A DNA stretch of 64,000 bases from Thermoflavimicrobium daqui. Its GTDB lineage: Bacteria > Bacillota > Bacilli > Thermoactinomycetales > Thermoactinomycetaceae. Location: NCBI RefSeq assembly GCF_003313465.1, contig NZ_KZ845665.1:372001-436000 (forward strand), read 5' to 3'. The first letter of the stretch is position 1. Each line of letters starts with the position of its first letter. Shown piece after piece: positions 5,170-43,815 of the stretch. Made by a program: the position numbers and the translations under genes. The notes beneath the pieces are model-generated. The model worked only from the letters and a program-made list of their open reading frames with translations. It did not search any database and was not told the DNA's origin.

Positions 5170-5586
5170 AAAAGTAAACAAGGCAATCGCCGGTGGGTAC
5201 CGCAAGGTCCCACGGGAGGAAAGTCCGAGCTCCATAGGGCAGGGTGCCGGCTAACGGCCGGTGGGGGCGACCCTAAGGCAAGTGCCACAGAAATGTAGAC
5301 CGCCGATGGAGGAGTTATTCCTCACAGGCAAGGATGCAACGGTGCGGTAAGAGCGCACCAGCAGCATGGAGACATGCTGGCTAGGTAAACCCCACCTGGA
5401 GCAAGACCTAATAGGAGATCAGTACACGAGGTGTACAGCTGTTGCCCGCAGTGATCTCGGGTAGGTCGCTGGAGCCATATAGCAATATATGGCCTAGATA
5501 GATGATTGCCACTCCAATGGGTGGAAGATGAATAAGCCATCGCTAATACCACTCGGAGTACAGAACTCGGCTTATTGTTTGCTTTT
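5170..5586 (+). ncRNA. rnpB: RNase P RNA, type A-like architecture
   Basis: This is the catalytic RNA that matures tRNA 5' ends. P1 pairs AAAAGTAAACAA (5170-5181) with TTGTTTGCTTTT (5575-5586). Universally conserved blocks are visible: GGAAAGTCCGAGCTCC, GGTGCGGTAAGAGCGCACC, GGTAAACCCCACC and GATAGATGATTGCC. The text closely follows proteobacterial type A RNA, including GGAGCAAGACC...GGGTAGGTCGCTGGAGCC and the hairpin ending in GGCCTAGAT. The type B signatures of Bacillus subtilis are not seen. Apparent open frames antisense to this gene are shadows. Confidence 0.95.
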
Positions 5587-5600
5587 CTGTTTGCTTAGAA

Positions 5601-38433: not shown

Positions 38434-39447
38434 ATGTCTAGAAGGATTGGTATAAGTTTAGCTGTGACTTTTTTACTCGTATTTGTGGGAGCTTTTGTGG
38501 CGATAGCCATGGAAAAGAAAGTGGAAATTGCTTTTAGTGATCAATCAGGAGAAGTAGAAATAAGTGGTTATTATGATACACTATCCGAAGCATTACAAAG
38601 TGAAGGCTATAACCCAGCTCAGTTAAAGAAGAAATATCAACCAAATATCTCTTGGGAACAGGAGTTGCATGATAATGCCAAGGTATTTCTTGCTTGTAAC
38701 TGTGAAGTAACCATCAAAGAAAATGGAAAAGTCAAAGAAAAAATCAAAACAACACAACCAACAGTAGGTAAACTTCTAGAAGCACAAAATATTAAGTTGA
38801 CTAAATGGGATGATGTTTATCCAAAACCGAAGCAGAAAATTGAAAATGGTATGACTATTACCATGAATAAAGTAGAAACAAAAGTAAAAAAAGAGGTAAA
38901 AGTAACTCCATATCAAGTGAAAAAAGTGAAAGATTCGAGCTTACCTATGGGAACAACCAAAGTACAAACGGTCGGAAAAGAAGGTAAAGAAATTTTTCAA
39001 GTCACAACATTGTATAAGAATAATCAACCGATTAAAGAAAATGGGAAGATTATTGAACAAAGAAAACGTATTGAAAAAACGGATGTTGTTCATCAAGTGA
39101 TTAAAATAGGAACTAAAAAGGAAACATCAAAATCACTTTCAAAGAAAGTAACCTCTAGTAAAGCGGGTTGTCGTACTCTAAGTGCAGAAGTAACCGCATA
39201 TACTTATTATCTAGGTGAAAATATTACTTATGCTGGAGCTCCGGTAAAACGAGGAGTTATTGCTGTAGATCCAAAGGTGATTCCGCTTCATTCGCGTATT
39301 TATGTCCCAGGTTATGGCTGGGGGACAGCACTAGATACAGGAGGAAGAATTAAAGGAAATATTATTGACGTATTTATGGAATCAAAACAAGAAGCACTTG
39401 ACTGGGGTAAACCTAATAAAACGATTAAAGTTTGTCCACCTAAATAA
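38434..39447 (+). CDS. DUF348/G5/3D-domain cell-wall protein (first copy)
   Basis: It has an N-terminal membrane anchor, two DUF348-like repeats (VEISGYYDTLSEAL; VTIKENGKVKEKIKT) and a G5-like stretch. The C-terminal 3D domain has three aspartates: AVDPKVIP, ALDTGGRIKG and IIDVFM. The architecture resembles YabE/Rpf-like lytic proteins, so it may cleave peptidoglycan. 337 residues. It is followed by a near-parallel paralogue. Confidence 0.88.
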   Translation: MSRRIGISLAVTFLLVFVGAFVAIAMEKKVEIAFSDQSGEVEISGYYDTLSEALQSEGYNPAQLKKKYQPNISWEQELHDNAKVFLACNCEVTIKENGKVKEKIKTTQPTVGKLLEAQNIKLTKWDDVYPKPKQKIENGMTITMNKVETKVKKEVKVTPYQVKKVKDSSLPMGTTKVQTVGKEGKEIFQVTTLYKNNQPIKENGKIIEQRKRIEKTDVVHQVIKIGTKKETSKSLSKKVTSSKAGCRTLSAEVTAYTYYLGENITYAGAPVKRGVIAVDPKVIPLHSRIYVPGYGWGTALDTGGRIKGNIIDVFMESKQEALDWGKPNKTIKVCPPK

Positions 39448-39517: not shown

Positions 39518-39754
39518 GTACTTATTTTGTCCAAATGGAGAATACTTTATTGCGATTTTGTAGATTTAGTTCAAATCATACGTTCTCGACTTGTCCGACT
39601 AATATTAATGGTATAAAATACAAATAGTTGTTTAAAGATTAGATGCCAGGCTATACATATTAATCAAAATGCTTGGTCTATTTCCATATTGGAAATGAAA
39701 ATAAAGGGAATCTTTTCCTTTTATTTCAAAAGGTTTTCTATCAGGGGGAATGTG

Positions 39755-40774
39755 ATGAAAAAAAGTGTAATCATTGGTGTAGCAGTACTTGTAATCGTGT
39801 TGATCTCTGGAACTGCCGCAGCATTCGCCATGAAGAAAAATGTTGAGATTACGTTTAGTGATAAAGCTGAACAGGTGAAAATTAGTGGGTATTATGACAC
39901 ACTTGCTGAGGCACTCAAAGGTGAAGGACATAATGTCGATCAGCTAAAAAGTCAATATAAGCCCAGTGTTCCATGGGACCAAAAATTAAGTAGTAATACC
40001 AAGGTAAACTTTATTTGTAATTGTGAAGTGACCTTAAAGGAAAATGGGACAGATAAGGGAAAAATTAAAACAACCGAACTCACTGTTGGAGCCTTTGTAC
40101 AATCGCAAAAGTTAACTGTTAGCAAATGGGATCAAGTTAAACCAGCATTAGACCAGAAAATAACGAATGGACTCACCATTACGATTGATCGAGTTGAGAC
40201 GAAGATTACTAAAGAAGTAAAAGAAATCCCATTTGAAGTAAAAGAAGAAAAAGATCCTGAACTTTCCAAAGGAAAAAAAGTTGAAAAAACGCAAGGGAAA
40301 AAAGGAAAAGAGATTTATCAAGTAACTAGCCTCTTTAAAAATGGCCAGCCTGTTGAAAAGGATGGGAAACCGGTCGTTGAAAAGAAATTGGTTGAAAAAG
40401 TGGAACCAGTCGCTAAAGTCGTTAAAATTGGAACAAAGCAAGAACAGGAAAAAGTTGAAAAGAAAGATGAGCCAAAACAAGATGAATCAGGTTGTAAAGT
40501 GATGAGCGGGTTTGAATCAACCGCATATGATGGATCTGTTGGTAGTATAACAGCAACAGGTGCACCAGTAGGTCATGGTGTGATCGCTGTTGACCCCAGT
40601 GTGATTCCACTATACTCTCGAGTTTATGTTCCTGGTTACGGTTGGGGAAAAGCTCTAGATACTGGTGGTGTTATTAAGGGTAAAATTATAGATGTATTTA
40701 TGGTAGATCCAAGTAAAACCAGAAAATGGGGTCGGAAATACAATCTCACCTTAAAAGTATGTCCACCTAAATAA
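39755..40774 (+). CDS. DUF348/G5/3D-domain cell-wall protein (second copy)
   Basis: This is a tandem paralogue of the preceding gene with the same order of parts: VKISGYYDTLAEALKGEGH, CNCEVTLKENGTDKGKIKT, a lysine/glutamate-rich G5-like part, then AVDPSVIP, ALDTGGVIKG and IIDVFM. The real start is ATG at 39755 after CAGGGGGAA; an upstream in-frame ATG at 39689 lacks a ribosome binding site. The linker before 3D (residues 235-260) is longer and more charged than in copy one. Confidence 0.88.
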   Translation: MKKSVIIGVAVLVIVLISGTAAAFAMKKNVEITFSDKAEQVKISGYYDTLAEALKGEGHNVDQLKSQYKPSVPWDQKLSSNTKVNFICNCEVTLKENGTDKGKIKTTELTVGAFVQSQKLTVSKWDQVKPALDQKITNGLTITIDRVETKITKEVKEIPFEVKEEKDPELSKGKKVEKTQGKKGKEIYQVTSLFKNGQPVEKDGKPVVEKKLVEKVEPVAKVVKIGTKQEQEKVEKKDEPKQDESGCKVMSGFESTAYDGSVGSITATGAPVGHGVIAVDPSVIPLYSRVYVPGYGWGKALDTGGVIKGKIIDVFMVDPSKTRKWGRKYNLTLKVCPPK

Positions 40775-41048: not shown

Positions 41049-42512
41049 ATGGTAGGTCGTAATGTTCCTTGTCCATATGGTAACGGTCACAAACATAATT
41101 ATTGCCGTGAGAGAGTAATTACGATTGTACAAGCCGAAAAAAAACGTGAGCAAAGAGACAAAGAGTATAAAAATAGTTTTTTATTGGATTTAACTAATTG
41201 GTTTAAAGGGAATGTGAAATTAAAGGAACAAATAAAATGGGCTAACCATTTTAAACAGCTCCTACATCTGCCTCTTGACCAATCTATCCCCCAAAATTTC
41301 GTTTCTTCCTTTCAATCTTGGCTTATATTTGATGCCCCGTGTATTTTGAAAAGAAGACCTGTGGAATTTTGGATGTTACACAAGCGTGAAGAGTTACTAG
41401 GAAAGGAAAGGGTGGTTAATAGTTTAATAAATGCTCAGTTTACCTGTTACGAAGTTTTAAAAGTCGGGAAAGAAAGTATGGTTTTCCGATCACTAGTGGA
41501 TCAGGTAGAATATGAAGTGATAAAAGAGAATGATTTTATTTCAGAAGAAAGCATTCTTTTTACCCGGTTGATTCGTATAGGTAAACGATATGAGATATGT
41601 GGACCATTTATATCCTTTATGCATGAGATGAGAGGGGAGATACTCGTGCAGCTAGAGAAATACAATCATTTAGAAGAAGAACATCAAGAACTCTCGGCTA
41701 GGGAACACGGTTGGAAGGTACTCGGCTGGTCAATTCAACGGGCTAAAGAACTAGAAAAAATCGAAAAGCTTGTCTCTGCTTCTCCAGAAATGTTCGAAAG
41801 TATGCGTGAAGAAATGTTACTAACAACGATTGAAGCAAAGTCTGAGCATCCGGGTTTACCGATTCAAATCATACAACAATTGGAACAGTTTTATGTTACG
41901 CAAGTTGCACCACTGCAAAAAATAACCCAAACCTTTTATAGTCACTCACTAGAGATGCTTTATCAATATCTCTCCTTACGCTTTGGACAGTCGTTTGACT
42001 GGTCTTCGTTAAATGAGGATTATCTAAATCATTATTTTAGTGTATGGTATCTAGAACATGCAAAAACCACTCCTGCTACCTCTAAAATCTTCCTAAATAC
42101 TTCGAAGCATCTTTTTCGCTGGCTTTATAGTCAAGGAATAAGTAATGTATATTTAACTTTTAAAAAGGTGTATATTTCCTTAATTCGGAGTCTGCCTATT
42201 ACAATTGAAGCAAGAAGATGGATTTGGGAGAATGGTTTACGACCGATCAATGAAGATCATAGTAATCTCACAGCAGATATGTTTATGCTAGCTGTTTCTT
42301 CTGCGGGTCCTGTCTTATTAGTGAAAAATAAGTGGAAGCCCATTTATTTGCGAGGGTTTCCAACGATTTGGTCAGACTACCGCTTTTGGGTCAGAGGGTT
42401 GATACAGTCAGATGAAAATGGATGCTCATTTGTACAAGTGGAAAATTTATATCCCATGGTAACGTTGCTAGATGCTTCTTCAAACGAAAATCAAGTGCTT
42501 GGACATAAGTAA
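41049..42512 (+). CDS. Large hypothetical protein with degenerate SEC-C motif
   Basis: The N-terminus GRNVPCPYGNGHKHNYC follows the SEC-C zinc motif (CxCx8CC), but the second Cys is Tyr10 and the last pair is a single Cys19. The remaining 460 residues are helical and rich in aromatic residues (WLYSQGI-like, IWENGLRP), and I do not recognise them. Other Bacillota carry SEC-C plus unknown domain proteins. ATG at 41049 follows GAGGTG. Confidence 0.65.
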   Translation: MVGRNVPCPYGNGHKHNYCRERVITIVQAEKKREQRDKEYKNSFLLDLTNWFKGNVKLKEQIKWANHFKQLLHLPLDQSIPQNFVSSFQSWLIFDAPCILKRRPVEFWMLHKREELLGKERVVNSLINAQFTCYEVLKVGKESMVFRSLVDQVEYEVIKENDFISEESILFTRLIRIGKRYEICGPFISFMHEMRGEILVQLEKYNHLEEEHQELSAREHGWKVLGWSIQRAKELEKIEKLVSASPEMFESMREEMLLTTIEAKSEHPGLPIQIIQQLEQFYVTQVAPLQKITQTFYSHSLEMLYQYLSLRFGQSFDWSSLNEDYLNHYFSVWYLEHAKTTPATSKIFLNTSKHLFRWLYSQGISNVYLTFKKVYISLIRSLPITIEARRWIWENGLRPINEDHSNLTADMFMLAVSSAGPVLLVKNKWKPIYLRGFPTIWSDYRFWVRGLIQSDENGCSFVQVENLYPMVTLLDASSNENQVLGHK

Positions 42513-42588
42513 AAGATGGCCAGTTGTGATGTAGTTGGCTGTCTTTTTATTTTGGGATTGAAATAGAAGAAAATGATCATAATAAAGA

Positions 42589-42752
42589 TACACTTGGCGA
42601 AAGAAAAAACGCTTTTACTTTGTAAAACTAATCACAAACTCCGTCAACGAAAAGGTATGAAAGTATTATAAAAAGCGTATGAAGTTCAGTCGCCTAAGTG
42701 TAGATAACAAAGAGTGCCTTTTCCATCAGAGGTGCTCTTTGTTCGTTTTTTA
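42589..42752 (+). ncRNA. Unassigned structured RNA with terminator
   Basis: TACACTTGGCGA (42589-42600) pairs with TCGCCTAAGTGTA (42690-42702) over 12 pairs with one bulge. Inside, ACGCTTTT (42609-42616) pairs with AAAAGCGT (42671-42678) and TTTGT with ACAAA. A terminator hairpin (aacaaagag-tgcc / ggtgctctttgtt, T-run) follows at 42705-42752. A promoter candidate TTGAAA (42558) / TAATAA (42580), 16 apart, would start RNA at the first stem. I cannot match it to a known class. The remaining sequence to 42969 holds nothing clear. Confidence 0.55.
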
Positions 42753-42969
42753 TGGATGGAGAAAATCAAAAAAGGGTAATGTATTAAGAGTATGTTTCAA
42801 CATTTAATTATAGCTTGAATTGCCACTATATAAAAATGGGATCATTTTTGAAATAAACAGCTATTCACTAATCATAGGCTGGAAGTAAGTTCAACAGATC
42901 CATAATGATTAATTTAGAGGGTAGTCTTAAAATAATAATGAATCATATTTACAAGGTAGGAAGTGAAAC

Positions 42970-43815
42970 ATGGGAAAAGCAGATTTACATGCACATACAA
43001 CAGCTTCAGATGGTTTATTTACTCCATCTCAGTTAGTACAGCATGCACAAAGTCTAGGAATACAAGCTGTTGCGATAACTGATCATGACACGGTAAGTGG
43101 AATAGCGGAAGGACTGGAAGCAGGAAAGAAATTAGGTATCCAAGTGATTCCCGGAGTCGAACTCAGTACTCTATGGAATGGGAAAGAAATTCATATGTTA
43201 GGATATTATATTCAATTTGATAATGAAAATTTCCGTACATTACTTATGAAACAACGTAATACTAGAAAATTGCGTAATGAAATGATGATTAGGAAGTTAA
43301 ATGAACTAGGTATTTCAATTTCTTTGGAAGAAGTGAATCAAAAGAAAAAAAGCTCTTCGAAGGAGCTCAACGTTGGTCGACCACATATAGCAGAAGTACT
43401 TATTGAAAAAGGGATAGTCGGGTCGATGAATGAAGCTTTTGATAAGTATTTGGGGAAAGATGGACTTGCCTATATCACTCCGGAGCGGATAAGTCCGTTT
43501 GAAGCAATTGATCTTGTTAAGCAAAATGGAGGAGTGACCGTACTTGCTCATCCTGGACTGTATCAACAAGACGATCTAATTCCTCAATTAGTTCAACATG
43601 GCTTAATAGGTATAGAGGTTAATCATCCTGATCATACAGCAGAAGATCGTAAACGTTACCAAGAGATTGCTACTAAGTATCAATTGATTACAACGGCAGG
43701 TTCTGATTTTCACGGGGAACGACAAGGTTCCATGTATCATGCAGAGCTTGGAACATGTACAGTTGACATCAGTCAAGTTGCTGCATTACAAAAAAAGTCT
43801 GGCTCGAATAAGTAG
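42970..43815 (+). CDS. PHP-domain phosphoesterase (RNase AM/YciV-like)
   Basis: All metal motifs are intact: ADLHAHTTASDG (His7, His9), ITDHDTVSG, PGVELS, VLAHPGLY, EVNHPDH and GSDFHGER. Relatives remove 5' nucleotides from short RNAs or phosphates from nucleotides. 281 residues; the start follows AGGAAGTGA. A degenerate relative begins near 63320 at the right window edge. Confidence 0.9.
   Translation: MGKADLHAHTTASDGLFTPSQLVQHAQSLGIQAVAITDHDTVSGIAEGLEAGKKLGIQVIPGVELSTLWNGKEIHMLGYYIQFDNENFRTLLMKQRNTRKLRNEMMIRKLNELGISISLEEVNQKKKSSSKELNVGRPHIAEVLIEKGIVGSMNEAFDKYLGKDGLAYITPERISPFEAIDLVKQNGGVTVLAHPGLYQQDDLIPQLVQHGLIGIEVNHPDHTAEDRKRYQEIATKYQLITTAGSDFHGERQGSMYHAELGTCTVDISQVAALQKKSGSNK

Follow-up and report, generated by a model that had tools for sequence, protein, structure and literature searches.

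The window, a stretch of 64,000 nucleotides from the Thermoflavimicrobium daqui genome, carries on its forward strand, at positions 42589 to 42752, a unit of about 160 bases flanked by two protein-coding genes of the same orientation. The upstream gene (41049–42512, + strand) encodes a protein of 487 aa that is present in 22 of the 23 genomes of the family and marks the corresponding slot in relatives. Neither Pfam nor NCBIfam gives a match to this protein at E ≤ 0.001, and its start (CPYGNGHKHNYC) resembles a SEC-C-like zinc motif. The downstream gene (42970–43815, + strand) encodes a PHP-domain protein that is RNase RNM-like, with a score under the cut-off of that model, and is found in 21 of the 23 family genomes. 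Named relatives of the PHP protein place the genome in the Thermoactinomycetaceae. Farther upstream in the window lie two adjacent, similar-looking genes (38434–39447 and 39689–40774), the first of which matches DUF348, G5 and 3D domains and is resembled by the second when the two are compared by eye. Elsewhere in the window, an Rfam scan identifies positions 5171–5589 as a class A RNase P RNA; Bacillus relatives usually carry class B RNase P RNA.

The unit opens with the 5' arm of a closing stem (42589–42600, + strand, TACACTTGGCGA), located at the expected first transcribed base. The 3' arm (42690–42702, + strand) reads TCGCC-T-AAGTGTA, and fold prediction joins the two arms by 12 pairs with one bulged U. 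Inside this stem, the predicted fold places an inner stem between 42609–42616 and 42671–42678 (+ strand), and the unit ends with an intrinsic terminator (42706–42743, + strand) made of a 16-pair stem followed by a T run. The initial annotation had described these elements as a 12-pair closing stem with one bulge, an inner stem of eight pairs and a clean terminator, 218 bases ahead of the PHP gene, and all of them lie where it placed them. It was also right in treating the unit of about 160 bases as self-contained. The fold energy of 42580–42760 is −50.2 kcal/mol (z −5.1), and that of 42589–42702, which excludes the terminator, is −27.8 (z −4.1), with none of 200 shuffled sequences as stable in either case. 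The closing stem has a probability of 0.97 in the ensemble of the window RNA and, according to the fold prediction, coexists with the terminator. The + strand of the window has nine stems of at least 12 Watson–Crick pairs with at most one bulge and a comparable spacing, and ten shuffled windows have 2–10 each (mean 4.9). At a frequency so near the shuffle level in 64 kb, the stem alone proves nothing, and it is comparison that supplies its meaning.

A −10 element of the sequence CATAATA, which is sigma-G-like and homologous to the −10 of the corresponding gene in relatives, lies just ahead of the stem (42578–42584, + strand), six bases before the core of the 5' arm, as in the homologous loci. 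The initial annotation had proposed a promoter whose start would fall on the first stem base; the −10 element fits this proposal, but a simple sigma-70 scan finds none at this place, and the −35 looks weak by eye. A transcript start on the first stem base is plausible from the position of the −10.

Rfam, which the initial annotation had suggested scanning, yields no match to a known family for the window element: in Rfam 15, no family reaches its gathering threshold, and nothing convincing appears at a permissive threshold. This bears out the view that no known riboswitch or small RNA class is present, and likewise nothing points to a riboswitch that acts on the PHP gene. None of 11 related end-pairing loci matched Rfam either. 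A DNA search of the genome itself at E ≤ 0.001 returned one match, the element, and in a search of 100 related genomes all the matches listed were short, the best having an E value of 1.3e-4 over 35 nt. Six of these short matches were inspected by eye and none resembles the unit; two of them (L003 and L004) lie inside open reading frames. Phage records gave no match to the element.

In relatives, a small open reading frame of about 50 to 104 codons fills the slot behind the 487-aa gene, and in the window the unit sits at this position, between the genes for the 487-aa and PHP-domain proteins. Other genes intervene between the slot gene and the PHP gene in several relatives. Profile searches found the slot gene in 15 of the 23 family genomes (E ≤ 0.01), in 26 of 42 genomes of the order (E ≤ 1e-3, including two weak partial matches in family f6) and, in a sample of 299 genomes of the class, in 18, none of which lies outside this order. 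In the sister family f3, the slot position was seen only in two named loci (L088 and L089). Eight family genomes are without the gene in the profile search: the window genome (G000), G008 and six others (G002, G007, G010, G011, G019 and G021), whose slots were inspected by eye and held no slot gene. The two profiles, A1 and A2, had no match in the window genome or in G002, which is the nearer of the two genus mates by its flanking proteins; the other genus mate, G001, retains the gene. In the slot of G002 (L032, L062), an apparent mobile-element end, presumably of the IS200/IS605 type, lies between the upstream gene and a terminator.

The slot protein is small and polar. When compared with the SASP alpha/beta model PF00269 (cut-off 22 bits), the best score was 13.9 bits (E 0.056), reached by one of five proteins, and a comparison with SspF covered 11 columns at a probability of 8.4 percent and an E value of 0.004, which does not establish kinship. 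The slot proteins of L111 and L112 (G004 and G017) look tandem-duplicated, with two ELG-type motifs, both matched by the profile, in one frame of about 103–104 aa, and the 3' stem arm overlaps the stop codon; the same proteins are present in the Laceyella loci L085 and L086. In G012, TGAATA lies about 17 nt upstream of the −10, and a slot-gene −10 preceded by TGAATA is presumably, by its consensus, of the sigma-G type.

The two ends of the slot-gene mRNA appear to be complementary to each other. In 20 of the 24 slot loci read, CACTC in the 5' UTR has a GAGTG counterpart that follows the coding sequence or overlaps its stop codon. Three further loci (G001, G005 and G014) use other letters, which are complementary once the register is set by hand, and in G009 neither arm was found. 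In the resulting table of arms, G009 is thus absent, the registers of G001, G005, G014 and the window copy are hand-set, and the bulged U of the window copy is omitted. The arrangement is also seen in eight of nine named loci, from Lihuaxuella, Thermoactinomyces, Laceyella (two), Paenactinomyces, Melghirimyces, Kroppenstedtia and Shimazuella, and was not seen in the ninth, from Paenibacillus; the nine come from 16 that were fetched and repeat sequences already present in the G-labelled set, so they do not count as independent. The core of the stem begins 6 to 8 nt past a −10 of the CATACTA or CATAATA type, with exactly 6 nt in 18 of the 22 rows that could be placed, that is, those of the 24 slot rows with a recognised −10. 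Terminator-like hairpins follow the 3' arm in most relatives inspected. The window unit has both the 6–8 nt spacing from the −10 to the arm core and a second arm close before its terminator.

Among 20 distinct rows, 196 of 240 cells are paired (shuffle mean 174), and 27 cells, distributed over 11 of the 12 pairs, have changed on both sides (shuffle mean 10.4). Neither count was reached in any of 5000 column shuffles, which ignore kinship, so that these figures overstate the case somewhat. When the window's genus is left out, 175 of 216 cells are paired and 15 double-change cells are left in six of the 12 pairs (plain counts); the drop means that the covariation of the slot gene rests partly on that genus. 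In predicted folds of the transcripts of 23 loci, the arms pair with a mean probability of 0.74, compared to 0.15 with shuffled 3' arms, and the weaker, differently lettered stem of G001 has an ensemble probability of 0.01. Permissive duplex folding proved too loose, and contiguous stems were used instead to test each locus. Most loci gave P values of about 0.00 to 0.06, three were weak (G001, 0.22; G015, 0.14; G003, 0.09) and two were at chance (G005, 0.40; G009, 0.81). At interrupted pairs, G-U exceeds A-C by 23 to 11. At the level of the aligned DNA, the arrangement in the relatives can be taken as established, together with its conservation and covariation.

The window copy has preserved some parts of this arrangement better than others. 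Scored with a matrix for the −10 plus 5' arm, built from 23 relatives, the best of 127942 window positions is 42573, with 17.6 bits against 14.8 for the next. The 3' matrix, placed in register, scores −6.7 bits and ranks 6677 of 127926, probably because the arm changed along with its partner and has a bulge. The best joint pair of 5' and 3' matches in the window is on the other strand (27.3 bits, against 21.1 for the unit) and is taken for chance. Directly after the 5' arm, 42601–42625 (+ strand) aligns to the Shine–Dalgarno and start region of G012, G001 and G040 above all of 500 shuffles and appears to be a remnant of that region; for the other relatives among the 23 tested, the alignment was equalled by two shuffles (G035), seven (G041) or at least 24 (the remaining 18). 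A run of five G that is present in G012 is absent from the window, between 42609 and 42610, and the start position has become TTG (42620–42622), immediately followed by a TAA stop (42623–42625). When the interior was compared with the coding sequences of 24 orthologs, 23 of the comparisons were at chance, and in that with G003, five of 300 shuffles were as good, which is not significant across 24 tests. No relative of the 89-base interior was present among the matches listed in the genomes searched.

As read from the DNA, the window copy has kept the −10, both arms and a terminator, and has lost the Shine–Dalgarno sequence, the start and the coding sequence. With the frame kept and its contents gone, the unit is best read as a gutted spore mRNA, either a relic or a derived untranslated RNA; it is probably the former and possibly an RNA under selection. 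On balance, we therefore favour the reading that the unit is an emptied frame, left by the end-paired transcript of a small forespore gene, and that it is a relic rather than a selected small RNA. The initial annotation had called it an unassigned structured RNA, perhaps free, and would have counted a lack of conservation against it. It may indeed be a free RNA now, but an unassigned class does not fit a unit whose position, promoter, 5' arm and Shine–Dalgarno region are homologous to the frame of a small spore-gene mRNA. The frame is conserved, and it is only for the interior that no relative was found. The earlier interpretation is thus partly supported.

Pairing between the ends of the message is also found in a second type of spore gene. 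A starting control consisted of 22 SASP-family genes from five genomes. Among the 17 outside the sspF type, end pairing never reached significance (lowest P 0.07), while three of the five sspF-type genes gave P values below 0.04. The survey of sspF across many Bacilli was then based on 80 loci chosen for family spread rather than at random, four of them (G031, G008, G023 and G028) from a separate search and the others from 139 matching genomes. Fourteen of the 80 gave no readable gene, 47 further loci were added from these two sources, and two of the resulting 113 were dropped as mis-called genes, which left 111 loci in 34 families. The stem was searched between the 5' UTR and the region past the stop codon. 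The best-stem scores sum to 2127, compared to 1624 ± 28 when partners are permuted, with a maximum of 1750 among 20000 permutations. The signal persists when each family is reduced to a single locus (z 8.5 to 9.5) and when f1 and f3 are removed (z 14.2). Untranscribed upstream DNA (z 0.4) and coding sequence (z 0.1), used as controls, show no such signal. Pairing of the 5' UTR with the end of the coding sequence gives z 2.5, and with DNA farther downstream z 4.0, perhaps because some arms sit farther out.

The position of the sspF stem resembles that in the slot gene. Among stems with a score of at least 17 at loci with a recognised −10, the start falls 3–8 nt after the −10 in 51 of 57 own pairs, compared to 17 of 59 swapped ones. 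The arm letters vary between families with complementarity retained, and at interrupted pairs G-U stands to A-C as 32 to 20 (137 to 169 in swapped pairs). The G-U excess, in the slot gene and here, is as expected for pairing in a sense RNA, although the asymmetry is modest. In 47 of the 111 loci, the own partner outscored 95 percent of swaps. None did so in families f9 (0 of 6) and f20 (0 of 5), and the SspF proteins of f20 look like B. subtilis SspF. An end-pairing stem was not detected in sspI (11 loci) or sspH (13 loci). In the sspF gene of the window species itself (L172, G000, C7:17924-18106), CCCTGTTA pairs with TAACAGGG (P 0.03), and the stop codon lies inside the 3' arm. Searches of open-licence full texts yielded no report of end pairing in sspF or other SASP mRNAs, and the fact that no stem was detected in the B. 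subtilis-like sspF group may be why it went unnoticed.

Pairing between the 5' and 3' ends of a bacterial mRNA is already known, with icaR, hok and RNAIII as examples (PMC5502269). In the icaR mRNA of Staphylococcus aureus, as here, the ends of one message pair (PMC3868564), and its 3' UTR covers the Shine–Dalgarno region and forms an RNase III target. In the slot gene, by contrast, the first bases of the transcript pair with bases ahead of the terminator, which leaves the Shine–Dalgarno sequence free, and pairing of the 3' UTR with that sequence was not found in the slot-gene loci. The hok mRNA of plasmid R1 and S. aureus RNAIII are likewise closed on themselves through the 3' end (PMC5502269). 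They differ in being toxin or regulatory RNAs, and the closure of hok affects its translation. To our knowledge, there is no relation in gene or promoter to either of them. Similar in the effect proposed here are the 5' stem-loops that stabilise Bacillus mRNAs, whose 5' structure blocks decay that depends on the 5' end (PMC3997798), but those are local hairpins, whereas the partner of the 5' end is here the 3' end of the message. Among the SASP genes (Pfam SASP, SspH and SspI), sspF, itself a Pfam SASP match, shares the closing stem. The slot gene is like SASP genes in its small polar protein and its sigma-G-type promoter. Unlike the slot gene and sspF, the 17 other SASP-family genes, sspH and sspI are without a detected stem.

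In the proposed mechanism, a sigma-G-type promoter in the relatives would start the slot-gene mRNA so that its first 8–12 bases form the 5' arm, and the partner segment would lie between the stop codon and the terminator or overlap the stop. The helix would then close the mRNA beside the terminator hairpin, with the ribosome-binding site and the coding region in the loop; running from the first base and adjoining the terminator, it would seal both ends. RppH of B. subtilis acts only where two or more bases at the 5' end are unpaired, and RNase J1 then attacks the monophosphate end so produced; hairpins at the 5' end make mRNAs more stable, and 5' structures can protect long downstream stretches (PMC3997798). 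A helix of this kind would presumably leave RppH and RNase J no single-stranded 5' end, and the sealed mRNA might last longer in the forespore and the dormant spore. We infer such a longer life through end pairing from the arrangement. In the window species, a transcript would likewise exist, starting at the first stem base, and would yield an RNA of some 160 bases that is not translated. The mRNAs of sspF and sspI are both reported to be abundant in dormant B. subtilis spores (PMC7407066). That sspI mRNA is abundant and yet shows no stem (11 loci) means that the stem cannot be a general requirement for persistence. The sspF genes of f20 show no stem either and the group resembles that of B. 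subtilis, so sspF mRNA, too, can be abundant in spores without a stem.

The gutted mRNA may by now be a selected untranslated small RNA that has kept stem and terminator for an action of its own in the forespore, a reading that we hold as a tentative possibility. The stem is perfect, with 12 of 12 pairs apart from the bulge, despite the lost Shine–Dalgarno and coding sequences, the six pairs that differ from G012 have either changed on both sides or turned Watson–Crick, and the stem probability of 0.97 in the ensemble points the same way; the −35, which looks weak by eye, and an interior with no match among those listed in the genomes searched argue against selection. It is highly improbable that the unit is a free small RNA of a new class belonging to the locus, as the initial annotation suggested, or a riboswitch of such a class. 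Such an RNA would be consistent with a self-contained unit of fold z −5.1 and with the lack of an Rfam match at cut-off, but not with a frame that is homologous to a protein-coding transcript, nor with the syntenic gene in relatives, nor with a closing stem and terminator that coexist in the predicted fold, nor with a search of 100 related genomes in which only short matches were among those listed.

The stem itself could have a different meaning as well. That the arms are an inverted repeat acting at the DNA level, such as operator half-sites or the ends of a small mobile element, is scarcely credible. The letters of the slot-gene arms are themselves conserved (CACTCAAC with GTTGAGTG), and a possible 4-base AGAT repeat was seen by eye to flank the window element, but a DNA-level repeat is hard to reconcile with a single genome match at E ≤ 0.001, a near-fixed spacing to the −10, sspF arms that differ in letters between families while complementarity stays, and a G-U over A-C excess of the kind expected for sense RNA, modest as it is. 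Unlikely as well is a control of translation similar to that of icaR, in which the 3' region would act on initiation or ribosome release. Pairing between the 5' and 3' UTRs governs icaR translation in S. aureus (PMC3868564), and the 3' arm includes the stop codon in Laceyella and in some sspF genes. The 5' arm, on the other hand, starts where the transcript itself is expected to start and, in the slot-gene loci inspected, lies upstream of the Shine–Dalgarno sequence; this control is less likely because that sequence stays free. A more sweeping version of end sealing, in which the mRNAs of sspF and the slot gene would be closed as panhandles across the Bacilli to survive into the dormant spore, and the window copy would be a sealed untranslated RNA under selection, appears distinctly doubtful.

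With the unit read as the emptied frame of a forespore mRNA, the window shows that a transcript frame can outlive its protein. The greater interest is in the end-sealing stem rather than in the window unit. It would represent a pairing of 5' and 3' ends in bacterial mRNA that has been kept over many families of one class, and it makes one answer to the question of what lets certain mRNAs persist in forespores and in dormant spores open to direct test.
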